A stretch of DNA of 64,000 nt from Desulfosarcina cetonica JCM 12296 (lineage in GTDB: Bacteria; Desulfobacterota; Desulfobacteria; Desulfobacterales; Desulfosarcinaceae), in the NCBI RefSeq assembly GCF_001311845.1, contig NZ_BBCC01000006.1, positions 1 to 64,000 of the forward strand, in the 5' to 3' direction. The notes under the pieces were generated by a model. The model searched no databases, was not told where the DNA came from, and saw nothing but the letters and a program-made list of their open reading frames with translations. The position numbers were made by a program, and so were the translations under genes. This document shows positions 13,205 to 43,195 of the stretch, piece after piece; position 1 is the stretch's first letter; every line of letters starts with the position of its first letter.

Positions 13205-13225
13205 AGCAAGAAGCTGGGACGGGCG

Positions 13226-14299: not shown

Positions 14300-14312
14300 C
14301 CCTTCGGTTTAT

Positions 14313-16205: not shown

Positions 16206-16349
16206 GCTTTCTTGTTGATATTTTATACAATATGTGGATCAGTCGGTACGCCTGCAGCCGAGGTCTCAAATCGGGCGGCATTAGACACACAGATAATATG
16301 CAAATATACCGCCAGGATCAACCCTATAAAATAATTGGATCAGACCGCC

Positions 16350-23319: not shown

Positions 23320-26177
23320 GTGAGTAAAATGGCGGGACATCAAATGGCGGTAGCCCCTGGGGCGCGGATCGAGGTTCGTGATGCCGAATGGCTGGTCAAG
23401 CGGGTTGATCGCACATCAACCGGTGGGCAAGCGTTGAGTGTGATTGGCATTTCCGAGCTGGTTCGCGACAAAGATGCGATTTTTCTCACGGAGATTGAAA
23501 ACAAGATCGACATTCTCGATCCACGGGATACCAAGCTGGTCACCGATGATTCCAGTGCCTATCAGGCTTCCTTGCTCTACATGGAGAGCTTGCTTCGGCG
23601 TAAACCACCCACGGATCAAAATCTGTACATCGGGCACAAGGCGGCCATGGATCCAGTGCCGTATCAGCTTGATCCGGCTATTCAGGCGCTTCAGCAGCCC
23701 CGTCAGCGAATTCTGATTGCCGATGCGGTTGGCCTTGGGAAAACACTTGCCGCGGGGATCCTGTTGAGTGAATTGATCCGACGGGGAAAAGGCAAACGGA
23801 TCCTCGTTCTGGCTGTAAAAAGCATGTTGACCCAGTTCCAGAAAGAGATGTGGAGTCGTTTCACCATCCCCCTTGTTCGGCTGGATTCGGTAGGCATTCA
23901 GCGGATTCGTTCAAGGATTCCCACCAACCAGAATCCCTTTTTTTATTATGACCGCTCCATCATTTCCATCGATACGTTAAAGCAGGATACCGAGTACCGG
24001 ACCTATCTGGAGAATGCCTATTGGGACATCATCGTCATCGATGAAGCCCATAATGTGGCCGAACGAGGCAATGCATCGTCGCAGAGAGCCAAGCTTGCCA
24101 ACCTCCTATCGGAACGATCGGACACCCTGATCATGCTGTCGGCAACACCTCACGATGGCAAAGCCCGCAGTTTCGCCAGCCTCATGAACATGCTCGATCC
24201 CACGGCCATTGCCAATCCGGAAAAATATGGTCCAGAGGATATCAAGGGGCTTTATATCCGCCGGTTCAAGAAAGACATTCAACATCAGGTGGAAATGGCA
24301 TTCAAGGAGCGGGAGATCCGGGTGGCCCACTGTGATGCCAGTCCGTTGGAGGAATCCGCATTTGATGGTTTCATCAAAATACAATTTTCCGAGTTGGATC
24401 AAAAGCGTGGCCCTGGCCAGCTGTTCAAGATCACGCTGGAGAAGGCGCTTTTTTCAAGTCCCGCGGCCTGTCTGAAAACCATCGCCAATCGGATCAATCG
24501 TCTGGAGAAAGACGAAACATCACGATTTGCCAAAGACATCCAGACGCTGAGAACCTTCGCGGACGCGATCGCGGCGATCGATAGCGACGATTTTTCGAAA
24601 TACCAGAAGCTGCTGGATGTCATTACGGATCAAAAAAACGGATTTGGTTGGACCCCCAATGACAGTCATGACCGTATCGTCATTTTTACCGAGCGGATCG
24701 AAACGCTCAATTTCCTGAAAAAGAATTTGATCCGAGATCTGAACCTCAAGGAAAAGCAGGTCGCCATTCTCTATGGCGGAATGTCGGACATCGAACAGCA
24801 GCAGGTGGTCGAGGATTTCGGCAAGGATGAATCACCCATCCGTCTGATGGTGGCCTCGGATGTGGCCTCGGAAGGCATCAATCTGCATTACCTGTCCCAC
24901 CGCATGATCCATTTCGATATTCCCTGGTCGCTGATGGTATTTCAGCAGCGCAATGGCCGTATCGACCGATATGGCCAGACCGAAACGCCTCAGATCGTCT
25001 ATCTTGTGACACGCAGCGAGGTCGAACGCATCCGTGGGGATATGCGCATTCTCGAATTGCTGATCCAAAAAGACAACGAAACCGTCAAAAACATCGGCGA
25101 CCCGGCCGAGTTCATGGGCGTTTACGACATCGATGAAGAAGAGAAAAAGACGGCCGATGCCATTGAGCAAGGACTGACCCCTGAGGAATTCCAGGCGTTT
25201 GCCGCAAATCACGAGGAAAGTCCCGAATCGATTCTTTTTGGTGATGATGAACCGCCTACCGGACAAATGACCGAAATCGCCAAGCAAGACATGCCTTCGC
25301 TTTTCAAGGATGATTTTGATTATGTGGCATCTGCCATTGGCTATCTGCGCCATTTCGGCAGGGTCCAGGCCGATCTTTATCCGGATGAAAAACGGATTGA
25401 TATAGCTCCGAACGATGAACTGAAATCCCGATTCCGGTTTCATCCCCGTGAAATCTGGCCGGATGATGGATTCTTTGTTTTGTCCGCGGACAAGTCGACC
25501 ATTCAGGAGGAGATCAAGCGCAGCCGCAAGGATGAGAAAGCCTGGCCGCAAATCCATTATCTCTGGGAACTCAATCCGGTTGTCGACTGGATCAACGATA
25601 AACTGCAAGCGGCTTTCCGCCGTCACGAGGCTCCAGTGCTTGAGATGCCATCTGTATTACAGGATGGTGAAACCATTTTTCTCATGTCCGGTCTGATTCC
25701 CAACCGAAAAAGTCATCCGTTGGTTCACCGCTGGTTCGGCGTTTGTTTCCAGAATGGCCAACCCGCAATGGTAAAGCCCTTTGAGATGATCCTCGATAAA
25801 ACTGGCCTGGGAACGACATCCTTTCCCAATGAGAAACGCGTCATTGACGTTGATCGAATCAAGCCTTGATGCCCGAAGCCATCGACAAGGCCCGGGAATG
25901 GATGCAATTGCGGCGGTTGGAATTTGAAAGCGGTATCCGGGGAAAACTGGATGACCATATGAACGCCCTTGATCGGCTGCGAAAAAAGCAGCACCAGCAA
26001 CTGGAACTGCAATTTGAAGAGAGCCGACAGCATGAAAAGATTATCCTTTCCCAAAAGGCACAGAAAGGTCGCCGGATCGATGGGATCTTTAATGCCTACC
26101 GCCAATGGATCAAGGATACCATGAGCACGGAAGACAATCCGTATATTCAGGTTATTGCCGTTTTCAAGGGGAATTAA
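23320..26177 (+). CDS. SNF2/SF2 helicase, DrmD-like (split near 25866)
   Basis: DNA translocase resembling DrmD of class I DISARM. N-terminal part (PGARIEVRDAEWLVKRV) is followed by helicase motifs: Walker A DAVGLGKTLAAG (about residue 135), DEAH box VIDEAHNV (about 240), SATPHDG, and the C-terminal lobe VASDVASEGINLHYLSH with QQRNGRIDRYGQ. The frame stops at 25869, and a 102-residue helical frame starts at the overlapping TGATG. One missing base at AAGCCTTG would join RIK to ALMPEAIDKAREWM and give about 952 residues, a normal DrmD length; I prefer that. If real, the split is a coupled small gene. Start may be GTG 23320, ATG 23329 or ATG 23344. First gene of the defence operon. Confidence 0.85.
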
Positions 26178-26178
26178 C

Positions 26179-29100
26179 ATGGCCATCGACCTAACCGGCA
26201 TTATCAACGAAAACGAATTTTATACCCACCATTATCTCAGCGCCATCCTCGAAAACGACCTGAAGGAGGTGTTCAGCCAATGGGAAACCCTGAAAAAGGA
26301 TCAGGATATCCGACCGCCCTACGATCAACTCAAATCCCTGTCACGAGACTATTTCCGGCTGCGCGATCAACATGCCAAGACTCGCCAGGTTGAGGAAAAA
26401 CGGCAGGCTGAATTTGCCTTCCTGGGCCGTCTGATGGGCGCGCTGGGGTATCCGGTCAATTTTGATATCCGCCAATTGGAGGAAAACCGGTTGTTGCCCA
26501 TCGCCGGAGAGATAGCCAAAAAAAGCGGCGCCCCGGAGTGTTGGATCATGCATGGGTTCAATCCCAATGGGGATGAACTCGATCCGCTGGAGATCGTGAT
26601 TGCGGATTATCACTATGGGAAGCACGAATTGCCCGAATTTGATTCCGGCGGGAAGGTTCATCCCATCGAGGGTGAGACCTTCGAAGCGATCGTTTCCCGC
26701 CGGGTATTCGGCCTGCCGGAGCCACCGCGCTGGGTGCTGCTGGGCAACCTGGATCAGTTGATGCTTTTGGATCGCGGAAAATGGAACCAGAAACGCTTTT
26801 TGCGTTTTGATCTGAAGGAGATTTTCGGGCGCCGGGAACCATCCACGTTCAAGGCCATGGCGGCGCTCTTGCATCGGGACAATGTCTGCCCCGGAGACGG
26901 CCTGAGCCTTCTGGATAATCTCGATGAAAATTCCCACAAACATGCCTTTTCAGTCTCCGAGGATTTGAAATACGCCCTACGCCAGTCCATCGAACTGTTG
27001 GGCAACGAGGCGGTGGTATATCTCAAGGACGTGCTCAAGGAGAAGATCTACGAGCGTAAACTGGCCGAACAGCTGACCATCGAGTGTCTGCGCTATATGT
27101 ACCGGCTGTTGTTTCTGTTTTATATCGAGGCGCGGCCTGAACTCGGATATGCGCCCATGGACTCGGAGCAGTATCGCAAGGGTTACAGCCTGGAAAGTCT
27201 GCGTGAGCTCGAAATGGTGCCGATCACCACCGAGGAATCGCGCAATGGCACCTATATTCACGAATCAATTCAGTTACTATTTGAAATGATTTACCATGGC
27301 CACCCCCGGAAGCAGAAAGACACACAACTGAAAATAGACGGCAAAACCGATTTCCATATCTTTCGTATCACAGCGTTGAATTCACATTTATTCGATCCTG
27401 AACGCACCGCGCTATTGAATCGGGTCAAATTCCGCAACCATATCCTCCAAGAGGTGATTAGGCTCATGTCCCTGACCCGGCCCGGCGGCAGGCGGGCGCG
27501 GCGGGGGCGGATCTCCTATGCCCAACTGGGCATCAACCAGCTGGGGGCGGTATACGAAGCCCTGCTGTCCTACCGTGGTTTTTTCGCCGAGACCGATCTT
27601 TATGAGGTCAAGAAGGCCGGCGAGAAATTCGATGAGCTGAACATCGGTTATTTCGTCAAGGCCGAGGATCTTGAAAAATACACGGATGAGGAGAAGTTCG
27701 ATGAAACGGGCCATCTGGTGCTGCACCCCAAGGGCAAGTTCATCTATCGGCTGGCAGGCCGCGACCGGGAAAAGTCGGCCTCCTACTATACCCCGGAGGT
27801 GCTGACCCGTTGCCTGGTTAAATACGCCCTCAAGGAACTGCTCAAGGATAAAACCGCCGATGAGATCCTGCGGCTTACCGTTTGCGAGCCGGCCATGGGC
27901 AGTGCCGCCTTTTTGAACGAAGCCGTCAACCAGCTTGCCGAAGCGTATCTGCAGCACAAACAAAAAGAGCTGGATCAGGATATTCCCCATGACGAATACC
28001 TGCAGGAAAAGCAGAAGGTCAAAATGTACATCGCCGACAACAATGTTTTCGGCGTGGACCTGAACCCGGTGGCCGTGGAACTGGCCGAAGTATCCTTGTG
28101 GCTGAATACCATCTATAAAGGCGCTTATGTGCCCTGGTTTGGCCTGCAACTCACCTGTGGGAACTCGCTGATCGGTGCCCGGCGCCAGGTGTTCGACAGC
28201 CAGTTGCTTAAAAGAGAGAATCGCGGCGATCCGCTGTGGCTGGATGAGGTGCCCACACGCATCCCCTTGGGCGAAAAGCGGCCGGCCAAGAGCGTTTACC
28301 ATTTTCTGCTGCCGGACAAGGGCATGGCCAACTACACGGACAAGGTAATCAAATCCCTGGCCGGAGACGAAATCGAGACCATCAACGCCTGGCGCAAGGA
28401 ATTCACCAAATCCTATAAAAAAGCCGATATCGCCCAGCTTGAAAAGCTCTCCGCGGCGGTCGACCGGCTGTGGAACAGCCATGTGAAGGATCTCAGATCC
28501 ATCCGTCAGCGCACCAGCGACCCCTTGCAGGTGTTCGGACAGCCCGCTCCCCAACAAGGCGCAAGCCAGACCCTCACCCATTTCAAGGACCGGGTCTTTT
28601 CCCAGGAACTGCTCTCCCACAATATCCGCAGTTCCAGCGCCTATCGCCGACTTAAGATGGCTATGGATTACTGGTGTGCCCTGTGGTTCTGGCCCATTGA
28701 AAAGGCTGATTTATTACCCACCCGTGAGGAATTTCTGTTCGAGATATCCTTGTTATTGGAGGGCGATATCTATTCGTCGGAGCCGGGCGTGGGCGAACAA
28801 CTTTCCCTTTTTCCGGACACGCGACCCAAGCAGATGTCGCTGGATATGATTGAACGGTTGGGCGTGGTTTGCGTCGATGACCTGAAGGAGAAGTTTGCGC
28901 GATTGCGGGTTGTGGAAACGCTGTCCGAATGGTATCGCTTTCTGCATTGGGAATTGGAGTTTGCAGATTTGTTTGAGGATTTGGGTGGTTTGATTTGATT
29001 CTGGGGAACCCGCCGTGGCTCAAGGTGGAATGGAACGAAGGCGGCATTCTGGGTGACAAGGAGCCGCAGTTTGTATTGCGGAAAATTTCGGCCTCCAACC

Positions 29101-30977
29101 TGGCCAAGCTCCGGGACGAGGCCGTGGAGAAATACAACCTACTGTCGGACTATCTCACCGAGTACGAGGACGCGGACGCTACCCAGGGATTCCTCAACGC
29201 ACTTCAGAATTACCCCATGCTCAAGGGGATCCAGACCAATTTGTATAAATGTTTTCTACCCCAGGCTTGGATGTGGGGTACGGGTGTATCCGCATTTTTG
29301 CATCCCGAGGGGATCTATGACGATCCGAAAGGGGGTGGATTTCGCCAGGAGGCTTATTCAAGGTTAAAATATCATTTTCAAATACAAAACCAGTTGATTC
29401 TGTTTCCGATTGGCCATCGTGAAAGATTTAGCCTGAATATTTACGGAGAAAAAGGTGAACCTGCTTTTACAACCATAGCAAACATTATACACCCCAGAGT
29501 CATTGACGAATCAATGAATCACGATGGAGTAGGTTTAACTCCGGGAATTAAAACCGAAGATGGGAAGTGGAATTTTAAAGGGCATTCAAATCGCGCTATT
29601 AAAGTAACCCATAGAGAATTATCTTTATTTGTAGCACTATATGATCCACCTGATACTCCTGTTGATTCTGCCAGATTACCGTCTTTGCATGCCAGAGAAC
29701 TGATTGCTGTTCTGAGAAAATTTGCAAGTCAACCAAAACGGCTTGGAGATCTTGAAGAGGAATATTTGCCCCTTGAAATGTGGCATGAAACCAATGCGCA
29801 AAAAGACGGCACGATTCAGCGCAATACCCGCTTCCCAGGTAGCACCTCAAACTGGATTCTATCCGGCCCTCATTTTTATGTTGGTACGCCTTTTTACAAA
29901 ACTCCTCGCCAAGTATGCACTGAAAAGGGACATTACGATATACTTGACCTCACTAAACTGCCTGATGACTATCTTCCGCGAACCAACTACATACCAGCTT
30001 GCGAAGTCGAGGAATACTTGAGGCGGACGCCGAAGGTGCCTTGGGAGGATGGAAAAGCTGTTACTGACTCTTATAGATTGGTTTCTCGTTCAATGTTAAG
30101 CCAATCTGGGGAACGGACTTTGATTTCAAGTATTTTTCCTCCTGCAATAGGCCACATCGATCCATGCTTTTCACTAACCTTTGAAAAAGATAAGAACCTC
30201 GTTGCATCTGCATCAGCATTTATTTCATTACCATATGATTTTTATATAAAAACAACAGGAAACCCAAGGTTTAGAAATAATTTGGCCAAGTATCTGCCTC
30301 TTATCGAAGGGTTTTTTAACTCATTGATTTCAAATAGAATGATGATTCTTACTTGTCTTTCGATACATTACTCGGAGTTATGGGAAAAACATTGGAACCA
30401 AGAGTTCACATCCTTTTTTTGGTCCAAATCGGATACCCGTTTGCCGTCTAAATTCTTTTCCCATCTTACACCCCAATGGAACCGCAACTGCGCCCTGCGT
30501 ACCGATTACACCAGAAGGCAAGCCCTTGTGGAAATCGACGTCCTTGTGGCCATGACCTTAGGGCTCACCCTGAAAGAGCTAAAGACCATTTACCGGGTGC
30601 AATTCCCCGTGATGCGTCAATACGAGTCCGACACCTGGTACGACACCAATGGCCGTATTGTCTTCACCAACTCCAAGGGACTTGTCGGTGTGGGGCTACC
30701 CCGCAAGGCCAACCAGCGGGATGCTGCATACGGAATCAACACCCCTGGACGCAGCGAACGTGGAATTCCGCTGGGCTGGGAGGACATCAAGGACGTCTCC
30801 CAAGGCACCGTCACCAAGACCTTCATGGACGACACCCAGCCCGGTGGGCCAAAGGAGCGGACCGTGACTTATTTGGCGCCTTTTGACCGCTGCGACCGGG
30901 AAAAGGATTATGAAACGGCTTGGGCTTTCTTTGAAAAACGGTTTGGGAAGCACGAATCACACGAATTACACGAATAA
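26179..30977 (+). CDS. Eco57I-type N6-adenine DNA methylase, DrmMI-like (frameshifted near 28985)
   Basis: About 1599 residues when joined. The SAM-binding motif CEPAMGSAAFLNEAVNQLA (about residue 570), VFGVDLNPVAVELAEVSLW, and the catalytic NPPW (LILGNPPWLKVEW, about 943) define an adenine-N6 methylase of the Eco57I/PglX/DrmMI group. The last residues of the first frame and the first of the second meet at a missing G near 28985, just before NPPW. I see no clear nuclease motif in the roughly 550-residue N-terminus, which favours a modification subunit over a type IIL enzyme. ATG at 26179 directly follows the helicase stop. The C-terminal KHESHELHE is encoded by an ATTCGTG-type repeat. In DISARM the methylase marks self DNA. 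Confidence 0.87.
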
Positions 30978-31089
30978 TGGATGGGAAAAATTACAAAATA
31001 TTTGGTATATTATGCAGTTTCTAAAAAAGATTAACAATAACGAATAGTTAATTTAAGATGGCTATTCGTGTGATTCGTGTGATTCGTGG
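30951..31089. repeat. ATTCGTG-type repeats in inverse orientation
   Basis: cacgaatcacacgaattac... (30951-30975) and, inverted, attcgtgtgattcgtgtg.. (31064-31089) are built from a 9-base unit attcgtgtn. The first forms the last codons of the methylase gene; the second precedes hicA. A further copy lies at 32684-32709. Confidence 0.8.
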
Positions 31090-31160
31090 TTTTAATATAT
31101 TTTATCCTTGAAACGTGGTTCAAGCGATACTATATGTGATATCAAAATAGAGATAAAAAA

Positions 31161-31448
31161 ATGGGAAAAGCACAAAAGCTTTTTGAACTTTGGGCCGATA
31201 CCATTCCGAAAGAGGCCCGCATCCAGGATGTTAAAACCTTTTTAAACAACTATTTCCCGGATATGTGGGACCAAAAGGGCTCTTCGCATATGGTCGTAAG
31301 GTGTGAAGCCTTAAAAGAATTCCCGGATTATCAGCCATATGGCGAAATATCTGTTCCGGTTAAAGGCGGGCAGAAGGTAAAAGGGTTTTACATTAAGCAA
31401 TTGATAAAAGCTGTCCAATTGCTGCAAGAGTTGGGAGATCCATCATGA
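31161..31448 (+). CDS. HicA-like toxin
   Basis: 95 residues. The core KGSSHMVVRCEALKEFPDY and ISVPVKGGQKVKGFYIKQLIKAV matches the HicA double-stranded-RNA-binding-like fold, with the conserved His that is catalytic in HicA mRNA interferases (here in SSHMVV). The N-terminal 30 residues (KLFELWADTIPKEARIQDVKTFL) replace the usual short HicA start. It overlaps hicB by ATGA, the classic hicAB arrangement with toxin first. The pair sits inside the defence operon between the methylase and fusion helicase genes. Confidence 0.78.
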   Translation: MGKAQKLFELWADTIPKEARIQDVKTFLNNYFPDMWDQKGSSHMVVRCEALKEFPDYQPYGEISVPVKGGQKVKGFYIKQLIKAVQLLQELGDPS

Positions 31449-31849
31449 AAAAAAACCTGAACCATTATCTGGCATTGCCTTATCGGATTGAGATCGTTCA
31501 CATTCCGGAGGATGAAGGCGGTGGATACATGGCCAGGCTGCCGCAGTTCGGCGCCATGGGTATTGTGGGAGATGGCGATACCAAGGAAGAAGCCCTGGCC
31601 GATCTGGAAAACAGCCAACGTGAGCGTTTTCAGTACTATCTCGAAGAAGGGCTTGAAATACCGGAGCCCGAAATTGCGGATGATAATTTCAGTGGGCGTT
31701 TTCTGGTCCGTTTGCCAAAATTCCTGCATCGGGAGTTGGCGCAAGCCGCCCAGCAAAATGGCGTCAGTCTGAACCAATACGTTTGCACGTTATTGGCAAT
31801 GAATTTTCAAACAGACCGGTTGGCGGCAACTGACGGGGATGCAAGATGA
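31445..31849 (+). CDS. HicB-like antitoxin
   Basis: 134 residues. The N-terminal domain YRIEIVHIPEDEGGGYMARLPQFG is the partially degraded RNase H fold of HicB, and the C-terminal SGRFLVRLPKFLHRELAQAAQQNGVSLNQYV is a ribbon-helix-helix DNA-binding domain. It would neutralise HicA and repress the promoter. Start ATG overlaps the hicA stop. Its end overlaps a 42-residue frame that precedes a SecB-like gene. Confidence 0.85.
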   Translation: MKKNLNHYLALPYRIEIVHIPEDEGGGYMARLPQFGAMGIVGDGDTKEEALADLENSQRERFQYYLEEGLEIPEPEIADDNFSGRFLVRLPKFLHRELAQAAQQNGVSLNQYVCTLLAMNFQTDRLAATDGDAR

Positions 31850-31967
31850 AATCCAATCCTTGAATCAATGCATCGGTGCGCTTAAATACCACGTCAAAAA
31901 GACAGAGCAGTCTGGAAATTACGATACCCGAACTCTTTTTGCCGACGAATACCCGAAAGCAGCCTAA
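31839..31967 (+). CDS. Small ORF between hicB and secB-like gene
   Basis: A 42-residue frame from ATG 31839 to TAA 31965-31967, overlapping the hicB stop by 11 bases. It is charged and ends in YDTRTLFADEYPKAA. I do not recognise it. In toxin-antitoxin-chaperone systems the antitoxin carries a chaperone-addiction tail that a SecB-like protein binds; a short separate peptide between hicB and secB is a candidate for this role. It could equally be chance. Confidence 0.4.
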   Translation: MQDEIQSLNQCIGALKYHVKKTEQSGNYDTRTLFADEYPKAA

Positions 31968-31981
31968 GAGGTGATATTTTG

Positions 31982-32410
31982 GTGAAAAAAACGGCAAAAC
32001 AAGCCATGGAACCGGCGGCCTACAGAGAGTTTTTAAATCAGGTCGAATTGGAAGCTATTCTGCTTGACACCTGTACGCTCAAAACAAATCGGGATAAACT
32101 CGGCAGCAACATGAAGCTGGATATCAAGCATGATGCGACATATACCATCGATGAGGATAATGTTGCGTCCATCATTTCCAGCTACGATCTGACAGCCACG
32201 AAAACAACCAAAAGAGATTTCGCATTGAAGGCTGTATGCGCTTATCGGGTGATCCTTTCTTCAGAACGACCTTTAAGCGATGATTTCCTGGAAATTTTCA
32301 TCCGGGTAAACATCCAGATGAATACCTGGCCATATTTTCGCGAGTTTATTCAAAGCATGATCCAACGGGCTGGTTTTCCGCCCCTGACCTTGCCGCTATT
32401 CAAACGGTAG
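31982..32410 (+). CDS. SecB-like chaperone
   Basis: About 142 residues. The C-terminal LSDDFLEIFIRVNIQMNTWPYFREFIQSMIQRAGFPPLTLP (shown in parts: TWPYFREF, RAGFPPLTLP) is the SecB end motif, and the N-terminal beta strands (LDIKHDATYTIDEDNVASI) fit the SecB fold. Solitary SecB-like proteins beside toxin-antitoxin genes are known as the chaperone of TAC modules, including with HicAB. GTG at 31982 (or TTG 31979) follows gagg. It is most likely cotranscribed with hicAB. Confidence 0.75.
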   Translation: MKKTAKQAMEPAAYREFLNQVELEAILLDTCTLKTNRDKLGSNMKLDIKHDATYTIDEDNVASIISSYDLTATKTTKRDFALKAVCAYRVILSSERPLSDDFLEIFIRVNIQMNTWPYFREFIQSMIQRAGFPPLTLPLFKR

Positions 32411-32456
32411 GCGGTGAGACGCCATTCGGCGGCCGAGTCAAAAACGGATTTGTCTT

Positions 32457-32630
32457 GTGAAAACAACTACAAAATTAATTTCAGAATCCGAATACCAGAC
32501 CATCTTAAAACGGATTGATGTGTTGATGGATGCCCAAAAAGGCACACCAGAACTGGAAGAGCTTATCAGATTAACGCGGATTGCCGAGAGGTACGAGGAC
32601 GAACATTACCCAATCGGGGTGCCACCATAG
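32457..32630 (+). CDS. HigA-type antitoxin N-terminal fragment
   Basis: A 57-residue frame from GTG 32457 to TAG 32628-32630: KLISESEYQTILKRIDVLMD, then GTPELEELIRL and YEDEHYPIG. This is the N-terminal domain of the HTH-type antitoxins of the HigA family, which normally continues with PDPIEAI and an HTH. Here it stops, so it is either a standalone small protein or a remnant. It lies 46 bases after the SecB-like gene. Confidence 0.6.
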   Translation: MKTTTKLISESEYQTILKRIDVLMDAQKGTPELEELIRLTRIAERYEDEHYPIGVPP

Positions 32631-32683
32631 GTTCGATTAAAGCCTGTTCCTCACCTATTTCCATCCTCGTTCCATAAATACCT

Positions 32684-32709
32684 ATTCGTGCAATTCGTGT
32701 CATTCGTGG
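32684..32709 (+). repeat. ATTCGTG-type repeat, third copy
   Basis: attcgtgcaattcgtgtc.. then attcgtgg. It is a direct copy of 31064-31089 and both are followed by tt. The two direct copies bracket the hicA-hicB-secB-higA segment. Confidence 0.75.
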
Positions 32710-32732
32710 TTAACTAAAATGGATACCGGCCA

Positions 32733-35700
32733 ATGATACCCTCCGTTCTCGCCGCGCAGCTCAAGACAGGTGTCGAAGATTTCCTGAAAACCACGTTCCC
32801 CGTTTCAACCCCGTTTTTCCACGGCATCATGGACAACCTGCTATCCCAACCGGAAGGGGTCTTCAAAGGCCCCTTTCTTGGTTTGCAGCTTCCTTTTGAG
32901 ACCGGAAGCCAACGGACCGACATTTTCCCTGAGATCACGCTTCCGTTTCCGCCCTACCTGCATCAGGAACACGCATTTGCACGCCTGTCCGGGCCAAAAC
33001 CAAAATCCACCATCGTTGCCACTGGAACCGGTTCAGGCAAGACCGAGTGTTTTTTGTACCCGATCCTGGATCATTGTTACCGCCACCGGGGCGAGCCGGG
33101 CATCAAGGCCATTTTGATCTACCCCATGAACGCCCTGGCCAGCGACCAGGCCACCCGCCTGGCCAGGATGATTTATGGGGATACCAACCTGAAGGGCAAT
33201 GTCACCGCCGGCTTGTTCGTGGGGCAGAGCGAAAAAGACCCACGCATGGGGATGTCCGACGATGCCATCATCAGCCACAAGGACACGCTGCGGCACAGCC
33301 CACCGGACATTCTGCTCACCAATTACAAAATGCTGGACTATCTTCTCATCCGGGCCAAGGACTACCCCTTGTGGCAACACAACCGGCCCGAGACCCTGCG
33401 GTACCTGGTGGTGGATGAACTGCACACCTTTGACGGCGCCCAGGGGACGGACCTGGCCTGCCTGCTGCGCCGGCTGAAGGCCCGGCTGGATACGCCCCAA
33501 GGGGTTCTTTGCTGCGTCGGCACCTCGGCCACCCTGGGAGAAAAAAGCGAAGCCAACCGCCTGGTGGCCTATGCATCCCAGATTTTCGGCGAAACCTTGG
33601 ACGATGAAGGCCTGATTACCGAATACCGGGTATCGGCCGGTGCTTTTCTGGAAAAAAGCCTGATATCCCAGGTGGATATCGTTCCCCTGGCCAAGGCGGA
33701 TCAACTCAACCCCGAACAATACACGGATTTTGCAGACTACATTGCTGCCCAACACGCCCTCTGGTTCAACGAAACCATTCCCAGGGATGAGATTCTCGAC
33801 GGTTCCTGGCGCATCGACCTTTGCGAGCGGCTCAAGGGGCACCTTTTTTTCAGAACCTGCTCAAGGTGCTGGGGGGACGCGTGCGCCGCTGCAGCGACAT
33901 CCTGGTCGACCTTCAGCGCGTGACACCAGAGTTCAGATCCGCACCGGATGCCTACAAACACGACATCCTGGCCAGCCTGGCGGCGCTGGTCTCCTCGGCC
34001 GTGGAAGAGAAAAACGGTATGCGCACGCCTTTTTTGCATGTGCGCTACCATTTATGGTTGCGGGAATTGCGCCGCATGGTCGGGGCCGTGGCCAATCCAC
34101 CGGCACTGCACTTTGCCGACGATCTCAACGACGATCAATTAAAACAGCACCTGCCCCTGATCCACTGCCGGGACTGCGGCAGCATGGGGTGGGCCGGCGT
34201 CAAGCGCCAGCACGACAGTGCGGTGAACACGGATCTGCAGAACGTTTATCTCTGTTTTTTCGCAACGATCCAAAAATCGTGTTTCTCTTTCCGGAAACCG
34301 CCGAACCGCAGGATATCCAGGCCGACGTCCAGTTTTATCTCTTATGCCCGCATTGTATTCATCTGACCACCCAATTGACCGCCGATGACTGCCCCAACTG
34401 CGGACAGGGGGGTATGATTCGGGTGTTTGCCCCCAACAATCGTGTTGCGCGGAGCAACCACCAGATCGGTACACACCACTGCCCGTATTGTGGTGCCCAT
34501 AACGGGTTAACGATATTGGGATCGCGAGCGGCCAGCCTGACCAGTGTACTGATTGCCCAGCTTTATGCATCCACCTTCAATGATGACAAGAAACTGCTGA
34601 CCTTTTCCGATTCCGTGCAGGACGCGGCCCATCGGGCCGGTTTTTTTGCCGGACGAACCTACCGTTTCAATATGCGCAGTGCCCTGCAGCAGTATGTCCA
34701 GGAATTTGGTGATGGTTCCCGGCTGGACACCATCCCCGCCGGTTTCATTCGGCATTGGCTGTCAACAATGGGCGAAGCGGCCTTCATTGCCACATTTATC
34801 GCACCGGACATGGGCTGGTTTGCCGATTACGAGGCACTTAAAAGCACCGGCAGGGTTCCAGCGGATGCCACGCTCCTCGACGATGTGAAGCAGCGGATTG
34901 CCTGGGAGATCTATACCGAATATGGTTTTCGTTGCCGCATCGGTCGGACCCTGGAAAAAACCAGCTCATCCGTGGCGCTGCCGGATGGGGAATTGCTTGA
35001 TCGGGTGGTTGATACGGCCCTGGAAGCGCTGTGCAACGAGATCGGCGGCCTGCGCCAACTGGATGCGCTGACCCTGAAACGGTTTATCCTGGGGTTGATC
35101 GCCCATCTCAGGCATCAGGGGGGCGTGCATCATCCGGTTCTGGATCGGTACATCGATGGGTTGGGCAATACCTTTTTGCTCAGCCAAGTGCCTTGGATGC
35201 CCAATTTCGGTATCAATACACGGGCACCGGCATTTCTATCGACCAAACGCACGCAACGTTTCGATCCGCTGCTGGGTGGTGGGGCACGGCGAACCACCTG
35301 GTACACGGCATGGGCCGATAAATGTCTGGCACCGGTTTACCCGCTGGTAACCGAGCTGGTCCCAACGATTTATGAAATTGTATTAAAGGCCCTGTGTGAT
35401 GGCGGCCTGCTGAGGGAAAAACGGGTCAAGGGTGAGCGGGTGTGGGGGATCGTGCCCGAGGCGCTTTGCATCAGCCGTGACGTGATTCAGTTTCGTTGCC
35501 AAGCCTGTGGTCATGAAACGTCGGCGGCGGTGATCGAGTCGGATGGGTGGACCGATTCGCCATGCCTGCGGTTTCACTGTACGGGCACCTATCAGGCGCT
35601 ACCTCCAAAGACGGATTACTACGCCAAGCTCTATGCCTCGGGCGATGTGGGGCGTATTTTTGCCGAAGAGCATACCGGTCTGTTGGATCGGGACGCCCGG

Positions 35701-38700
35701 GAAGCCCTGGAAACACGTTTTAAAAGCAAAGACCGCGAACCATGGGATCCTAATCTGTTGTCCTGCACACCAACCTTGGAGATGGGTATCGATATCGGTG
35801 ATCTCTCCTCGGTAATTCTGTGCTCCGTGCCGCCCGCCCAGGCAAACTACCTGCAGCGCATCGGCCGAGCCGGCCGGCGGGACGGCAATGCTTTGAATCT
35901 GACGGTCGCCAATGCCAGGCCCCACGATCTTTACTTTTTTTCAGAGCCGGAATCGATGATTGCCGGCCAGCTCGATCCGCCGGGGGTGTTTCTGAATGCG
36001 TCGGCGGTATTGGAACGACAATTCACGGCATTTTGCATGGACCGCTGGGTTGAAATGGGGATTACCGAAGGCGCCATGCCCCCTCAATTACGACAGGTAT
36101 TGGGAAACCTCGATAAACCCGATCCAGGCAAGTTCCCGCATAATTTCCTCGAATTCATCGAGCTTCACCGCACGGATCTGGTTGGTCGGTTCCTGAATAT
36201 TTTCGCGCTGTCACTGACGGATGATTCGATCCATCACATCAAGCAATTTGTCCAAGGCGATCGGGATACGCTGGGCAGCCTGACGTATCGGATCATCGAT
36301 GGGCTTCATTTTCACGCCAAAGAACGCGAATCGATAAAGAAAAAAGTGACGGCCCTAAGTTCGCAGATTCGCAAAAAAAAAGAACACCACGCCAAAGACC
36401 AGCATTTCCAGAAAGAACTCGACGAGCTGGTACGGGAAAAAAGCGCCCTTCAGGCGTTGGTCACCCGGATCAACGATCGCCAGACACTGCAATTCTTCTC
36501 AGATGAAGGCCTGATCCCCAACTACGCGTTCCCCGAAGCCGGCGTGCTGTTACGTTCCATTATCTACCGACGGCGTAAGACAGTGCGCGAAGGGGAAAGC
36601 AACTATGAAACCTTCAGTTTCGACTATGAACGGCCGGCAGTCAGCGCCATCAGCGAACTGGCCCCGGAAAACAGCTTTTACGCGGGTGGCCGTAAGGTAA
36701 AGGTTGATCAGGTAGATCTGACGGTTTCCGAAATCGAGATCTGGCGTTTCTGTACGCAATGCGCCCACCATGCCCTGGTCGGCAAGTCCCCGGAAACCAG
36801 TACGTGCCCTCATTGTGGAAGTGCCATGTGGTCGGATGCCGGGCAAAAACGGCAGATGATCCGCATGCGCCAGGTATTTGCCACGACCTCGGATCGCGAA
36901 AGCCGCATCAGCGATGACAGCGATGATCGGGAACCCTCATTTTGCAACAAGCAGATGATGATCGGTTACCATGAAACCGACATCACCGATGCTTACGTGA
37001 TCGATGGTGACGAACTGCCTTTTGGCCTGGAGTTTCTCAAACGGGTGAACCTGCGGGAGATCAACTTTGGCGAAAAGGACGATGCCGGAGAAAACCTGAC
37101 CATTGCCGGTATTGATTCCCCTCGCAAGGGATTCGTCATCTGCAAGCACTGCGGGAAGGTGCAGGGTCAAAGCGATGAGATTCAGCATGCCTTGTGGTGT
37201 CGTGCAAGAAAAAAAGAGTCGGAGGACAACCTGACCCAATGCGTCTATCTTTATCGTGAATTCTCCTCCGAGGCGATCCAGTTGCTGCTGCCGGTAACCA
37301 CATTTGAAGGCTCCGAAAAGAAACTTCACAGCTTTGTTGCCGCATTGCATCTGGGGCTAAAAAAAGTATTCGGCGGAAACATTGACCATCTGCAGACGGC
37401 CGTGCATGAAGAACCGGTCCCCAATTCGACCTATCGCAAAAAATATCTTGTCCTTTACGATACCGTCCCCGGTGGGACCGGATATATCAAGCAATTGATG
37501 CGGTCGGAAAAGCCGTTGTTCGAGGTTCTTGAGGTTGCATTGGAAACACTGAAAACCTGCCCCTGCAACCGGGACCCGGAAAAGGATGGATGCTATCAAT
37601 GCCTGTATGCCTATCGACGAAGCTACACCATGGCCGGAACGTCAAGAGAGACGGCCAAAGCCATGCTGACCGAAATTCTTCAGCATAAGGATAAGCTGAT
37701 CCGTAGGCAGTCATTGAAAGACGTACAGATCAATTCGCTTTTTGACAGCGAGTTGGAAGCAAAGTTTATCGAGGCACTGCGTCGTGTTCGCGTGGATGAC
37801 ATTCCCGCCAGGCTGACCAAGGCGGTTGTCAATGGAAAGCCAGGTTATTTCTACAAAATCGGGCGCCATACCTACACGATCGAGCCGCAGGTCCAGCTGG
37901 GCGCCGCCGATGGAATCAATGTTCCTTCCAAAGCTGATTTCCTCTTTCGGCCATCACGGATGCAGGACGGGGTCAAGCCGCTGGTGGTGTTTACCGATGG
38001 GTTCTATTACCACAAAACACGGATTGGTCAGGATATGGCACAGCGGTATGCCATTTCAAGATCCGGTAAATTCCATGTCTGGTCACTTTCCTGGAAAGAC
38101 CTGGAGAACCAGTATAAAAGCCAAGGGGCGTTCTTTAACAACTATCTAAGCATCACCGACAACGGGAAAAACGCAAACTATAATCGGCTGATGGCTTCCT
38201 TCAAGATCGAAAAACTGTTGAATCTGAACACGACGGACAGCTTCAACTGGCTGGTCCGTTTCCTATCCGCACCCGATGAGAATCGTTGGCAATACCACGC
38301 GTTTGTTAATGGTTTGTTGCATCTTGATCATAAGCGTTTTGCCAAGGACGAAGAAAGAGTGGCCTGGGTAGAACAGCTACAGGCACGTTTTCCCGAGGAG
38401 ATTGCAGAACAGGCCGGAAGCATAGAACCGCCGTGCTACTATGGTTTGTTTGAAACCAGTGCGGATGAGGATTTTATCAATGCATTTTTTTCGATTGATA
38501 AAAATTCCCTCAACAAAGGGAACCCATCCGGCCTTTATACGGCATGGTGTCTTTCCGATGGACCGACGGAACGTGAGAAAGCCGATTTCGAAGCGGCATG
38601 GAATGGTTTCCTTCGTTGTTATAATCTGTTCCAATTTTTAGGAAATGCGTTTTTCTCAACCACCGAAGGCAAGGTTACGGGACAGGTGTATCGGAAGGCA

Positions 38701-39033
38701 TCCACCGCTCAAGATGCGGTTTCGGAAGCGGCAAAGGAAAACCCGGATGCATGGGAAGAAGTTAAATCGTTGACCGATAATTCCTTGCATGGCCTTGTCG
38801 ATAAAATGGCGGAAAACGGGTGGGCTGTCCCGGAAGTCGGTTTTGAGCTTGAATCCGATACGGGTGAAATTATCGGTGAAGCTGAACTTGCCTGGGCTGA
38901 GCAGAAAGTGGCACTTCTCACTCAAGCGCACCTTCGCTTCAAGGATGCATTTACCTCATTGGGTTGGTGGGCCGTGGAAATTGAATCCGTTCTTGATGAT
39001 CAGGCCGGTTTTCTTGACCGTGCTCTGCGCTAA
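32733..39033 (+). CDS. Giant SF2 helicase-DUF1998-nuclease fusion, DrmA/DrmB-like (two frameshifts)
   Basis: About 2100 residues when joined. N-terminal SF2 lobe: Walker A VATGTGSGKTE (about residue 97), Walker B VVDELHTFDGAQG (about 227), GTSATLG. Between lobes are zinc-ribbon pairs (CPHC/CPNC, CPYC). C-terminal lobe: CTPTLEMGIDIGDLSSVILC (about 1010) and QRIGRAGRRDGNAL. Then more CxxC pairs and the DUF1998 cysteine cluster CPCNRDPEKDGCYQCLYAYR (about 1610). After it, SELEAKF (about 1670), KADFLF and LVVFTDGFYYHK (about 1750) look like a Vsr/DUF559-type PD-(D/E)XK nuclease. Missing bases in T7 (near 33847) and T6 (near 34258) runs split it. In DISARM, DrmA (helicase) and DrmB (DUF1998) are separate; here they seem fused. 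Confidence 0.85.
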
Positions 39034-39082: not shown

Positions 39083-41215
39083 ATGAAGAAAAATAAATCG
39101 AAAATCAAAGTGGCCATCGCCTCGGATTTTTTTACCTCATTTTCCAAGGTACCCCGAAAACAGCAGGCCAAAGTCCTCGATTTCATCAACAAGTTCAGGT
39201 CAGATCCCATGCTCCCCGGCATCAACTATGAACGTATCGTCTGTGCCAAGGACCCCAACATGCGCTCCGTGCGCATCGATCAATCCTACCGGGGCATCGT
39301 GTTGAAACCGGAATCGGGAAATGTCTATGTGCTCTTGTGGGTGGACCACCACGATGAAGCGTATCGATGGGCTGAGAACAAAACGTATCAGATTCATCCG
39401 GAAACCGGCAGTCTACAGGTAATTGACGTGGAGGCTGGTGATCCGTCGCAAGTGATCGCTGAATCACAGTCGGATGATGGGGAAAAGGGCCTGTTTGACG
39501 ATGTGCGTGATCGACACCTGCTAAAGCTGGGTGTACCCGAGCAGCAGCTTCAAGTGGTGAGAGGGGTGAGAGATGAATCGGATCTCGACCGATTAGCTGG
39601 CCAAATTCCCCAGGAAGCCTACGAATCCTTGTTTTTCATAGCCAGTGGCTACAGCCTGGAAGACGTCTTCCAGGAAATTGAAGCGTCCGAGGCGAAAAAG
39701 CCTGTTGATACCGAGGATTTTGGGGCGGCACTGGAAAATCCTGATTCAAGACGCCGCTTTTACGTTGTGGAAGATGACCTCGAGCTGGCCGCAATGCTCA
39801 ATGCACCGCTTGAAAAATGGCGTGTTTTTCTGCATCCCTCCCAGCAAAAACTGGTTGAACGGTCCTGGAACGGTCCGGTCCGGGTATTGGGAGGTGCCGG
39901 GACCGGGAAAACCGTGGCCGCCATTCATCGTGCCAAGTGGCTGGCGCAGCACCTTTTCAACGATGAGAACGATCGCATTCTTTTTACCACTTTTACGAGA
40001 AACCTGGCCGCCGATATTCAGGACAACCTCAGTAAAATCTGCTCCAAGGATGTGTTGAGACGAATCGAGGTGGCCAATCTGGACCGATGGGTGGCAACCT
40101 TTTTGCGGCGCAATGGGTACGAATACGAGATCGATTACGGGAATCGCACGGATCAACTATGGAAGCAGGCCGTGGACATGGCACCCGATGGGTTAAATCT
40201 TGAGCCTTCGTTTTATCGGGAAGAGTGGGAACGGGTTGTTCAACCCCAGGCGATTTCATCCGCCAATGAGTACATGCAGGCCAGTCGAATCGGCCGGGGC
40301 ATCCGCTTAAACCGTAAAGCTCGAAAAAGCGTGTGGTCCGTGTTTGAAGAATACTGGGCATTGCTGAATGAAAATGGTTTGAGAGAACCGGCGGATGCCA
40401 TGCAAGACGCCCGCCTGTTGCTGGCCAATAAGAATGAGGATTTGCCTTACCGGGCAATCGTTGTGGATGAAGCCCAGGATATGGGGATTCAGGCCTTCAG
40501 TTTGATCCGGCAGATGGTTCCGGAGGGCAAGAACGATCTTTTCATCGTTGGCGATGCACATCAGCGAATCTATCGGCACAAAGTCGTATTGGGTCAATGT
40601 GGGATAAATATCGTCGGGAGAAGTCGAAAACTGAAAATTAATTACCGGACCACTGACGAAACGCGGGCCTGGGCCATCAGCCTGCTCAAAGGGTTGTCCA
40701 TCGATGATCTTGACGGCGGCACTGACGACCAGAAAGGGTACAAATCGTTGCTGCATGGCGTCTATCCAGAGGTGAAAATCTTCTCCGGTTTTAAGGAAGA
40801 GGTCGATTTTATTGCCGACTATCTGAATACAATAAAAACGGACACGGGTGTATTAAACGGTATTTGCCTGGTCGCCAGAACAAACAACCTGCTCATGCAA
40901 TATCAGAACTCATTAAAGGAAAAAGATATCGACGTGTATATGGTCAAACGCAGCGAAGCCGAGGATCGCCAAGCGCCGGGCGTTCGTCTGGGCACCATGC
41001 ATCGTGTGAAAGGTCTCGAATTCGATCATGTCATCATTGCCGGCGTCAACGATGGAATAATTCCGCTTGAAAGCATTGGGGCGCGATCCTCTGACCCCAC
41101 CGTAAAGGTCGACTCAGAGATCAGTGAGCGAGCATTGTTGTATGTTTCTGCGACACGGGCGAAAAAGGCGGTCGTTGTAACTGCTTTTGGCAAGGCGAGC
41201 CGATTTATCATTTGA
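39083..41215 (+). CDS. SF1 UvrD-like helicase with RelE-like N-terminal domain
   Basis: 710 residues, intact. Residues 1-105 resemble the RelE/ParE toxin fold: PRKQQAKVLDFINKFRSDP, then MRSVRIDQSYRGIVLKP and VYVLLWVDHHDEAYRWAEN. The rest is an SF1A helicase: Walker A GGAGTGKTVAAIHRA (about 270), VVDEAQDMG (about 463), GDAHQRIYRHK, NYRTTDETRAWA, and the C-terminal TMHRVKGLEFDHVII. ATG at 39083 is 49 bases after the fusion helicase stop, on the same strand, as the last gene of the locus. The RelE-like part has lost the clear catalytic set of mRNA interferases as far as I can see and may be a nucleic-acid or ribosome-binding module. Confidence 0.87.
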   Translation: MKKNKSKIKVAIASDFFTSFSKVPRKQQAKVLDFINKFRSDPMLPGINYERIVCAKDPNMRSVRIDQSYRGIVLKPESGNVYVLLWVDHHDEAYRWAENKTYQIHPETGSLQVIDVEAGDPSQVIAESQSDDGEKGLFDDVRDRHLLKLGVPEQQLQVVRGVRDESDLDRLAGQIPQEAYESLFFIASGYSLEDVFQEIEASEAKKPVDTEDFGAALENPDSRRRFYVVEDDLELAAMLNAPLEKWRVFLHPSQQKLVERSWNGPVRVLGGAGTGKTVAAIHRAKWLAQHLFNDENDRILFTTFTRNLAADIQDNLSKICSKDVLRRIEVANLDRWVATFLRRNGYEYEIDYGNRTDQLWKQAVDMAPDGLNLEPSFYREEWERVVQPQAISSANEYMQASRIGRGIRLNRKARKSVWSVFEEYWALLNENGLREPADAMQDARLLLANKNEDLPYRAIVVDEAQDMGIQAFSLIRQMVPEGKNDLFIVGDAHQRIYRHKVVLGQCGINIVGRSRKLKINYRTTDETRAWAISLLKGLSIDDLDGGTDDQKGYKSLLHGVYPEVKIFSGFKEEVDFIADYLNTIKTDTGVLNGICLVARTNNLLMQYQNSLKEKDIDVYMVKRSEAEDRQAPGVRLGTMHRVKGLEFDHVIIAGVNDGIIPLESIGARSSDPTVKVDSEISERALLYVSATRAKKAVVVTAFGKASRFII

Positions 41216-41359: not shown

Positions 41360-42145
41360 TTATTGTTCCTGATCCGGGAGAGCCTTCAGGGGGATGACAT
41401 GCGGTTTGTCTTGCACGCGTCCGACTTCAACCGCCACGCCATAAACCGACGCGATCGTTTCAGCCGTCAGGGCAATCGCCGGATCGCCAGAGGCGGCAAT
41501 CCGGCCTTGATCCAACACGATGACCGTGTCCGCATAGCGTGCGGCCAAATTGAGGTCATGCATGGAGATGATGGCCGACAAGGCGTTGGTTTTTACCAAA
41601 TGACGTAGCAAGTCCATGACTTCGAGCTGGTGACGAATATCGAGATTACTGGTGGGTTCGTCCAGCAGGAATACCTCGGCCTCCTGGGCAATGGCCCTGG
41701 CAAGGGTCACTCTTTGCTGCTGTCCGCCATTGATCGCTCCGAAGTCCTTCATCGCGAGGTCTTGGACGCCCATCCGCTCGAGGGCCTTGAAGGCCTTCTC
41801 AAGATCCTTCTTGCCGGTATGCCCGTTCCCATGAGGGTACCGGCCCAGAAGGACCATGTCGATGACGTTGAACGGGAAGATCTCGCCGCTGGTTTGCGGC
41901 ACATAGGCCATGCGTTTGGCAATCGCCTTGCGGCCCAGGCCCCGGATCGGCCTGCCGCCCAGTTCGATACTGCCTTTTTGCGGCCGCAGCAGGCCGTCGA
42001 TGCATTTGAGCAACGTGGATTTGCCGGCACCGTTGGGACCCAGCAAGGCCAGAATCTGTCCCGGCAACAGGTCGAAAGTGATGCGATCAAGCACCGGCCG
42101 ATCTTCGTAAAAAAAGACCAAATCGTCGACGTTCAGTATTTCGAT
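41360..42145 (-). CDS. FecE/BtuD-type ABC transporter ATPase, damaged 5' end
   Basis: Powers import of iron-siderophore or corrinoid complexes. Motifs: Walker A LLGPNGAGKSTLLKCI, Q-loop YVPQTSGEIFPF, signature NGGQQQRVTLARAIAQ (variant of LSGGQ), Walker B VFLLDEPTSNLD, and the switch His in ISMHDLNLA. At the 5' end the frame breaks in a T7 run near 42113; before it, IEILNVDDFG can be read to about 42145 in another frame, and no start codon follows. The bases there also encode the start of the divergent truncated gene. No permease or binding protein gene is adjacent, so this copy is probably an orphan left by a rearrangement. Confidence 0.8.
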   Translation of the reverse strand: MEILNVDDLVFFYEDRPVLDRITFDLLPGQILALLGPNGAGKSTLLKCIDGLLRPQKGSIELGGRPIRGLGRKAIAKRMAYVPQTSGEIFPFNVIDMVLLGRYPHGNGHTGKKDLEKAFKALERMGVQDLAMKDFGAINGGQQQRVTLARAIAQEAEVFLLDEPTSNLDIRHQLEVMDLLRHLVKTNALSAIISMHDLNLAARYADTVIVLDQGRIAASGDPAIALTAETIASVYGVAVEVGRVQDKPHVIPLKALPDQEQ

Positions 42146-43195
42146 AAAAATGGAGTGATTTGGCTCAAGGTGGGCGCGGATAAACGACGAGTCAACTCCA
42201 AGGAAGAATTACGAAGACTTTTCCAGGTCTCCGATCAGTTCCATGCGGACGAACTGCCGACCAAAGCAGGGGTGGAGACATTGGACAAGTTGCGGTTTCG
42301 AGATTTTCTGCGCGACATCTACAAACGCAATTTTCCGGAAGACCCGTCGGAATTGTTGCGACTGCTGCAGAACATGAACCTGGCAACCGACGGTGGAATG
42401 CTGAACTTGGCCGGGGTGCTGATGTTCGCCGAACGCCCTGAATGGATTAAACCCCAGTTCGTGGTTAAGGCCATCCGCTACCCGGGCAACGAGATTCACG
42501 TTACCGATTACGTGGATACCGAAGACTTTGCAGGCACCCTTAAAAAGATCTTCGACGATGCCCTTGCGTTTGTAATGCGGAACCTTCACAAGATCCAGGC
42601 CGGACGGGGTGTGAATGCCCCGGGACTACCCGAAATCCCGGAAAGCGTTTTTGAAGAGCTTTTGGTGAACGCCTTGGTACACCGTGATTATCTGGTGAGT
42701 GCGCCGGTTCGTCTGTTTATTTTCGACAACCGCATCGAGATTATCAGTCCCGGGCATTTGCCGAACAATCTGACCGTGGAAAAGATACTGGTCGGCAATT
42801 CGAATATCCGCAATCCGATCCTTGTTTCCTATGTTGCCAAGGGGCTGCTGCCCTATCACGGATTGGGCTCCGGCATCAAACGCGCCTTGGACGCTTGGCC
42901 GCAAATTGATTTCATTGATGACCGTGATGGTTGCCTCTTTATTGTAAAAGTTCACCGGAAATCGGTGGAAAAAACAACACCGGCCTCAATGCCGTCCAAA
43001 ACGTCGGTGAAAACGTCGGTGAAAATCTTGGCGCTTTTAAGCCGCAACAAGCATCTAACCATACCGGAACTGGCTGGGTTAATTGGCGTGACCGAACGTT
43101 CCATCGAAAGAAATATCCGTAAATTGCAGGATCAGGGCCGGCTTCGGCGCATCGGGCCGGCCAAAGGCGGTCATTGGGAAGTAATTCAATCCTGA
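42137..43195 (+). pseudogene. 5'-truncated AlbA_2/ATP-binding (RecG-like C-terminal) regulator gene
   Basis: The readable homology begins at QYFDKNGVIWLKVGADKRRV and runs about 350 residues to TGA at 43193-43195. It contains the GHKL-like ATPase part ESVFEELLVNALVHRDYL, IFDNRIEIISPGHLP and GLGSGIKRAL, and a C-terminal winged helix (LTIPELAGLIGVTERSIERNIRKL) preceded by a TSVKTSVK repeat. Full-length relatives have a further N-terminal AlbA_2/Schlafen-like domain of about 110 residues, which is missing. The frame continues upstream only as antisense of the ABC ATPase gene. The stop overlaps the right-hand repeat. Confidence 0.75.

Follow-up and report, generated by a model that had tools for sequence, protein, structure and literature searches.

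A probable ARMADA Type II armC gene of Desulfosarcina cetonica, its C-terminal tail domain common to other defence proteins, and an accessory slot between armB and armC

The DNA analysed here, called the window below, is a stretch of 64,000 nucleotides of Desulfosarcina cetonica JCM 12296 (RefSeq assembly GCF_001311845.1, contig NZ_BBCC01000006.1, positions 1 to 64,000 of the forward strand), in which positions 32733-39033 code first for a DEAD helicase of YprA type, then for a zinc module (DUF1998/MZB) and after it for a nuclease domain like that of Vsr, the domain order that the initial annotation had read from the sequence. As shown in Table 1, armA-like and armB-like genes lie upstream and an armD-like gene downstream, and the order armA-armB-armC-armD is both the published ARMADA Type II order and that of homologous loci. 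According to the available part of PMC12458937, this system consists of ArmA, ArmB, ArmC and ArmD in that order, namely a BrxHII/RapA-like helicase, a PglX-like methyltransferase, a YprA helicase and a GajB-like helicase, and the C-terminus of ArmC has a Vsr domain predicted to be active, behind which inactivated EEP and Vsr domains often stand, EEP being the published label for what we call the middle region. In E. coli, defence requires each of the four genes as well as the helicase motifs and is direct, without abortive death, while the ArmC mutants described in that part concern the helicase motifs and none the nuclease (PMC12458937). We are highly confident that the feature is the armC gene of an ARMADA Type II anti-phage operon, whose product would comprise a YprA/DruE-type superfamily 2 helicase, an MZB canopy and a C-terminal Vsr-like endonuclease, followed by a middle region and a Vsr-like tail that is degenerate. 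The fused ArmC nuclease as such is already published (Bell et al., 2025 preprint, PMC12458937), and the window gene adds a draft-genome member.

Table 1. Features of the window (positions of the whole stretch) and contents of the armB-armC slot in homologous loci (cited by our own handles)
Feature	Position or locus	Strand	Evidence or remark
armA-like BrxHII/RapA-type SNF2 helicase	23320..25869	+	Pfam SNF2-rel_dom/Helicase_C; PADLOC DrmD 1.5e-99; armB follows in homologous loci
armB-like methyltransferase, upstream piece	26155..28998	+	PADLOC IIG REase-MTase 2.7e-142, DrmMI 2.6e-49
armB-like methyltransferase, downstream piece, begins at NPPW	28995..30977	+	PADLOC IIG REase-MTase 8.4e-131
Direct repeat, left copy, 30 nt	31062..31091	+	90% identity to 32682-32711
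95-residue ORF, possible toxin partner	31161..31448	+	4-nt overlap with HicB gene
HicB-family antitoxin-like protein	31445..31849	+	Pfam HicB 1.6e-12
SecB-like chaperone	31979..32410	+	Pfam SecB 2.2e-5, 24.8 of 26 bits, below cut-off
57-residue ORF	32457-32630		
Direct repeat, right copy, 30 nt	32682..32711	+	
armC first frame piece, N-terminus and RecA1 (DEAD)	32733..33923	+	Pfam DEAD 1.5e-23; L022 residues 1-375
armC second frame piece	33845..34291	+	L022 residues 372-520, another frame
armC third frame piece: RecA2, MZB, nuclease, tail domains	34255..39033	+	L022 residues 509-2100
MZB/DUF1998 zinc module	37339..37605	+	Pfam MZB 1.3e-13, residues 1204-1292 of 1767-residue ORF
Vsr-like nuclease domain	37729..38133	+	Conservation, profile comparison, predicted fold
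Middle alpha/beta region, between nuclease and tail	38155..38691	+	Predicted structure; no family found
C-terminal tail domain, common to ZorE, GmrSD-type and NERD-UvrD proteins; putative degenerate Vsr-like fold	38722..39030	+	Profile searches both ways, predicted fold
armD-like UvrD/GajB-type helicase with extra N-terminal region	39083..41215	+	Pfam UvrD 7e-24; GajB among best PADLOC matches
Slot: Gabija GajAB and Schlafen-AlbA_2	L076		
Slot: AlbA_2	L022, L086		
Slot: SIR2	L068		
Slot: GmrSD	L072, L084		
Slot: DUF6088/AbiEii	L098		
Slot: AbiEii	L081		
Slot: Phd-ParE	L052		
Slot: LeoAB dynamins	L092		
Slot: YhcG	L058		
Slot: M78 peptidases	L077, L085		L077 just below cut-off
Slot: ResIII helicase	L029		
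Slot: DUF2357/PDDEXK_7	L063		
Slot: AAA_11 helicases	L090, L096		

The loci that we gathered by similarity mostly have the same layout, with ArmC relatives at 29-61% identity over the best segment. In these loci the YprA helicase and MZB/DUF1998 are fused in frames of about 2,100 residues, which are broken in the window copy, and the published Walker mutant positions are occupied by K110 and D234 in the ArmC of an E. coli plasmid (L005). Two points weigh against the assignment: the gene order varies, since in L015 armC-armD stand ahead of armA-armB; and the RelE-like N-terminus described for ArmD in the available part of PMC12458937 went undetected in the window, where about 250 residues precede the UvrD core and the first 200 of the protein have no Pfam match at E<=1. 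The initial annotation had supposed that the fusion explains a missing DrmC-type nuclease; this was not borne out, the system being ARMADA Type II and not DISARM without DrmC. A DISARM variant with a DrmA-DrmB-nuclease fusion would account for the PADLOC matches of armA to DrmD and of armB to DrmMI, but the helicase pieces favour DruE over DrmA in the same profiles (1.8e-56 versus 3.1e-9 and 3.2e-57 versus 1.5e-12), and the helicase is fused with DUF1998 and followed by a GajB-type helicase just as in ARMADA Type II, which makes such a variant very improbable.

As assembled, armC is not a single frame. Its two listed open reading frames (ORFs), 32733-33923 (396 residues) and 33730-39033 (1767 residues), each lie in another frame; Pfam finds Helicase_C and MZB/DUF1998 in the longer one, whose start is listed at 33730 and whose first 175 or so codons have no alignment to homologues. 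The intact homologue of L022 aligns in three successive frames (Table 1), with changes near 33845-33857 and 34255-34291, and the full-length frames of the L022 and L076 genomes count 2103 and 2128 residues. The single polypeptide of about 2,100 residues that had been claimed thus holds in its length by homology, but not as one open frame. Moreover, armB also changes frame, near 28983-29010 by alignment to a homologue, where the profile positions run on from the upstream to the downstream piece and one homologue aligns across both.

The source genome is a draft of 558 contigs and 86.78% completeness, in which rpoB falls into three matches, of which the middle one is in a different frame and one contains a stop, and rpoC into two matches in different frames; because these genes of the same draft are also broken, the breaks of armC are likely sequence error. 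In the window itself an AMP-binding enzyme gene is split into 19561-20415 and 20175-21170 (profile positions 2-218 and 202-384), and the U32 peptidase ORF 3369-4526 with the DUF3656 ORF 4442-5278 is perhaps another split gene, as these two usually form one protein. The split AMP-binding gene together with rpoB and rpoC point to frequent insertion and deletion errors in the assembly, and the frame breaks of armC are most likely such errors. The basis is a single assembly, and a genuine decay of armC and armB into pseudogenes, with the system dead in the source genome, is a less likely possibility. The two frame changes of armC and the single one of armB speak for it, but the indispensable rpoB and rpoC are broken as well, the AMP-binding gene is split, and the nuclease residues and the MZB module are intact, so that we hold it quite unlikely. 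Another explanation is a programmed ribosomal frameshift linking the armC pieces, for which a run of seven Ts at 33844-33850 coincides with one break; this is hardly credible, however, as the L022 and L076 homologues each run through some 2,100 codons in one frame, there are two breaks rather than one, and further genes of the assembly are broken.

As to the nuclease domain, the motifs SELEAKF, KADFLF and LVVFTDGFYYHK sit downstream of the DUF1998 module as the initial annotation placed them, and the residues in question are, in the numbering of the 1767-residue ORF, E1343 (37756), D1403 (37936), D1423 (37996) and H1428 (38011). In an alignment of 96 ArmC rows, a few of which are probably duplicate records (for example L013 and L023) and two of which fall short of this domain (L079 at a contig edge, and L087, whose frame ends early), the 94 covering rows have E1343, D1403, D1423, G1424, H1428 and D1435 without exception, and the Q of IEPQ is conserved in 91. 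This conservation is far beyond chance, and the objection that homologues might lack the acidic residues falls. However, the place of the (D/E) preceding D1423 is taken by F in 72 rows, Y in 17 and E in 5, and the lysine of (D/E)xK is absent after the D1423 place. The predicted active site accordingly resembles that of Vsr (E, D, D, H, D) more than the textbook PD-(D/E)XK site. Vsr itself has a similar set of E, D, D, H and D residues, and such sites are named EDxHD.

Profile comparison and predicted structure point in the same direction. By pairwise alignment of profiles with hhalign, the ArmC nuclease matches MTES_1575 at 93% and Vsr at 73%, while five other regions of ArmC reach only 0.1-1.1% as controls. 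An AlphaFold2 model of window positions 37606-39030 has a mean predicted local distance difference test (pLDDT) of 89 and a predicted template modelling score (pTM) of 0.75, and its nuclease part has as top ranks in VIA-align NGO0050 (Z 6.9, root-mean-square deviation (rmsd) 2.8, 94/94 residues, 24% identity), BsoBI (Z 6.5, 127 residues, rmsd 3.5) and Vsr (Z 6.2, 109/134 residues, rmsd 4.1), followed at lower ranks by Bax1 (Z 5.5) and TnsA (Z 5.2). An alpha-beta-beta-beta-alpha-beta core with the conserved Asp and the downstream His is present in the predicted nuclease, again at Z below 8, so that the doubt whether the region would fold as a PD-(D/E)XK core is answered by a core of this kind. 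Several results weigh against this reading: all Z values of the nuclease and the tail are below 8, a range that may reflect merely a common arrangement; Foldseek gave the C-terminal model no PDB match at E<=0.001; the DUF559 profile reaches only 2%; and Pfam names no family on the window's own domain. Among 10 homologous nuclease domains, one (L092) matches PF18741 at 0.0087, below cut-off, which counts in favour, and none matches another nuclease family. Altogether an architecture of helicase, zinc module and PD-(D/E)XK-superfamily nuclease in one fusion is supported by profile matches, predicted fold and invariant residues. The initial annotation is right for the most part, with the site corrected to a Vsr-like one.

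It could also be that the nuclease domain is catalytically dead and merely holds or senses DNA as in Druantia I/II, with another protein doing the cutting. The missing (D/E)xK lysine fits this, as do the F or Y that 89 of 94 rows have in place of (D/E) and the description of the related C-terminal Vsr domains of Druantia I/II as inactivated in the available part of PMC12458937, and ArmB, which scores best in PADLOC with a type IIG restriction-methylation model, may hold a second nuclease. But the 94 rows keep E, D, D, H and one more D without exception, the ARMADA Vsr domain is predicted active in the same publication, and by Pfam none of the other operon genes has a nuclease domain; we consider a dead domain unlikely.

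A few candidates were set aside. An internal triplication of nuclease, middle region and tail found no support at the sequence level, for the three parts do not match one another by profile, and the middle region matches none of the profiles of Vsr, DUF559 and MTES_1575. Sequence searches of solved structures with the 477-residue C-terminal region, the nuclease and the tail gave matches judged spurious (designed armadillo repeats, YibA, a designed NTF2 fold and YfiT), and VIA-align rows without relation to nucleases, namely Der GTPases, G-protein complexes, Mediator and mitoribosome proteins, were discounted.

The last domain of ArmC merits separate attention. Profiles of ZorE match the last 87 or so residues of the window ArmC (PADLOC 6.3e-13, NCBIfam 1.3e-8), and the NCBIfam profile also matches ArmC-sized frames in 3 of 10 other genomes. 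In the reverse direction, a profile built from 87 ArmC tails and searched against the 11,266 ORFs of the loci finds three ZorE proteins (1.4e-13, 3.3e-17, 2.6e-20) by about 85 C-terminal residues, and the homology is thus reciprocal. The same profile finds GmrSD-type proteins in L064, with two tail copies (1.6e-19), and in L036 (3.9e-5), the next match being at 0.016, and Pfam confirms GmrSD_N in both; a helicase of L151, NERD and UvrD by Pfam, also bears the tail (6.2e-15). Among 31 tail members, Pfam names no family matching more than one, the best E being 0.0024.

Modelled alone, the tail (pLDDT 93.7, pTM 0.83) consists of two helices, three strands, a helix, a strand and helices. In VIA-align, with all Z below 8 as said, the top rank is the Toxoplasma mitoribosome protein 9g6k_L9 (6.5), followed by NGO0050 (6.2), AbaSI (6.1), PvuRts1I (6.0), I-Bth0305I (5.2) and Vsr (4.8); Foldseek gave no PDB match at E<=0.001, and the first ten BFVD matches are three DUF559 proteins, one endonuclease, one very-short-patch-repair endonuclease and five uncharacterised or unnamed proteins, with probability up to 1.00 yet E never better than 4.4e-3. 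The Vsr profile aligns at 53.5% over only 23 columns, MTES_1575 at 5.9% and DUF559 at 1.1%. Because two acidic positions are kept (E in 64/87 and 76/88 rows) and the alignment has no conserved His, the tail may be read as a degenerate Vsr-like DNA-binding module. According to the available part of PMC13192584, 53 of 59 Druantia-associated ZorE leaves end in a nuclease-like region whose family was not assignable, and the ArmC tail is very probably this same region. ZorE is not mentioned in the available text of PMC12458937 by word search, and no link between the ArmC tail and ZorE is apparent from titles and abstract openings of the open-access literature on YprA, DISARM, Druantia, ARMADA, Zorya and GmrSD, subscription literature lying mostly outside this scope.

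The distribution of the tail was followed in three genome samples. Among 395 genomes of the window's phylum it occurs in 10, at one place each, nine in ArmC (several in partial frames) and one in a GmrSD-type protein. In 40 genomes picked because ArmC is present, there are 47 tail places, of which 42 belong to ArmC-sized frames and the remaining 5 all lie on the ArmC contig within 33 kb, and in 36 of these genomes no second carrier type was seen. In 390 genomes of another order, 15 genomes hold 23 tail places, carried by 6 ArmC, 9 ZorE, 2 NERD-UvrD and 1 GmrSD proteins and 5 frames without assigned family; one of these genomes, G302, is also counted among the 40, and the two ZorE copies of G468 (L229 and L236), identical in their scores, are perhaps a single gene present twice in the assembly. 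In the six genomes of this order with an ArmC tail, five of seven other tails are within 33 kb of it: two in G302, two in G762 (ArmC, ZorE and GmrSD within 10.5 kb) and one in G783 (ZorE, 6.4 kb). The two distant ones, a NERD-UvrD helicase in G783 and a frame without assigned family in G817, are more than 1.5 Mb from ArmC on the same contig. Five genomes of this sample have ZorE tails but no ArmC tail, and therefore the tail module is independent of ARMADA.

Five tail copies stand in short or unassigned frames of 55-245 residues (L222, L225, L226, L231 and L232, the last without Pfam match), as possible solo versions or fragments. In one Oceanospirillales island (L151, including L151:3682-6189, and L150/L217) ArmC, ZorE and a NERD-UvrD helicase all end in the tail domain, and a second YprA-like helicase is located between armB and armC.

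Accessory genes have a slot at the armB-armC junction. Gaps of at least 350 bp, a threshold that leaves room for ArmA homologues longer than the query (median offset 293), occur in none of 37 armA-armB, 24 of 55 armB-armC and 1 of 83 armC-armD junctions, where L015 with its other gene order and loci without one end are left out. In the window the slot holds a HicB/SecB-like cassette at 31062-32711, flanked by the 30-nt direct repeats of Table 1, with an inverted repeat copy at 30948-30976; the exact 16-nt repeat core has only two copies in the 7.09-Mb assembly, both at the cassette. The 95-residue ORF before the HicB gene had been taken by eye for HicA, a reading that was dropped as Pfam gave no family at E<=1; this ORF and the 57-residue one at 32457-32630 are left without assignment.

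Of the 24 slots, Pfam covered one or more ORFs in 20, in several of them only some, with L030, L039, L047 and L057 unscanned, and in four (L030, L039, L047, L052) the largest ORF of the gap is on the opposite strand, making those inserts less certain. In 17 of the 20 there is a gene whose family belongs to defence, toxin-antitoxin, helicase or peptidase functions (Table 1), while Pfam finds no such family in L033 and L065, and DUF2357 alone, just below cut-off, in L080. Exact flanking repeats longer than 12 nt were not found in the 24 other slots, save trivial ones in L065 and L039 from overlapping edge windows. In Marinobacter (L064:4504-8273 with L216), armA and armB are followed by a slot of about 9.5 kb before armC, with a GmrSD-type protein of two tails, an MqsA-type antitoxin (Pfam 6.5e-20) and, directly upstream of armC, a SecB-like gene, which has no Pfam match of its own and is identified by its match to the SecB-like ORF of the window (3.7e-5). 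No mention of accessory genes at this junction was found in the available part of PMC12458937.

Two neighbouring observations concern related genes. Just downstream of armD, window positions 42128-43192 code for a RecG-C-terminal-like (HATPase_c_4) and helix-turn-helix protein without the AlbA_2 domain of the similar slot proteins of L022, L076 and L086; it appears truncated beside an ABC-transporter gene. In Tsukamurella (L017:1-3704 and 11268-17527), helicase-related and DUF1998 genes are directly upstream of an ARMADA-like operon whose armC is annotated as two genes.

As to how the ARMADA Type II system of the window might act, ArmB methylation would mark self DNA, ArmC would load onto single-stranded regions of unmodified phage DNA, translocate 3' to 5' and nick or cut it by the E-D-D-H site, and ArmA and ArmD may remodel the DNA, while the tail could dock ArmC on a DNA intermediate that other enzymes of the island also use. 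More generally and only tentatively, we propose that the ArmC tail is a mobile Vsr-derived module handed on between at least four otherwise unrelated DNA-processing defence enzymes (ArmC, ZorE, GmrSD-type and NERD-UvrD proteins), which would direct all of them to a common DNA intermediate or partner and thereby let adjacent systems work on a single substrate, and that the armB-armC slot receives nested cassettes, some with the same module, which may be a back-up when phage proteins block ARMADA. Neither the shared tail domain nor the slot appears in the literature searched. The tail link supplies a family, a fold and a profile for the ZorE extension, which the available part of a 2026 preprint ties to Druantia-Zorya synergy with its family unassigned, and it leads to the testable proposal that such systems may cooperate by sharing a DNA-recognition module. 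The invariant ArmC residues named above are handles on the nuclease step of ARMADA, and the slot is a simple place for finding further nested defence genes.

Compared with known systems, the locus differs from DISARM in that the helicase and MZB are fused in ArmC homologues, and general profile scans of the operon genes gave no PLD family. Druantia DruE is the closest PADLOC profile of the window helicase, but type III DruE ends in PLD domains according to its partly available description, and a DruE-sized frame of an E. coli island (DEAD, Helicase_C, MZB) is without the tail. With Vsr and REase_MTES_1575, ArmC has in common the fold and the conserved Asp and His, whereas its domain is fused to a helicase and, by profile alignment, has Asp at the first His of the F-x-HG-x(3)-H stretch of Vsr. 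ZorE of Zorya II is homologous to the ArmC tail in its C-terminal 85 or so residues, but has DUF8245 and HNH domains and no helicase, as far as the available part of PMC13192584 goes. Finally, with ArmC of ARMADA II, as described in the available part of PMC12458937, the window shares the operon order, the YprA helicase with MZB and the Vsr nuclease predicted to be active, after which inactivated nuclease-like domains are frequent, and it differs in that its copy is frame-broken as assembled and has a repeat-flanked HicB/SecB-like cassette between armB and armC.

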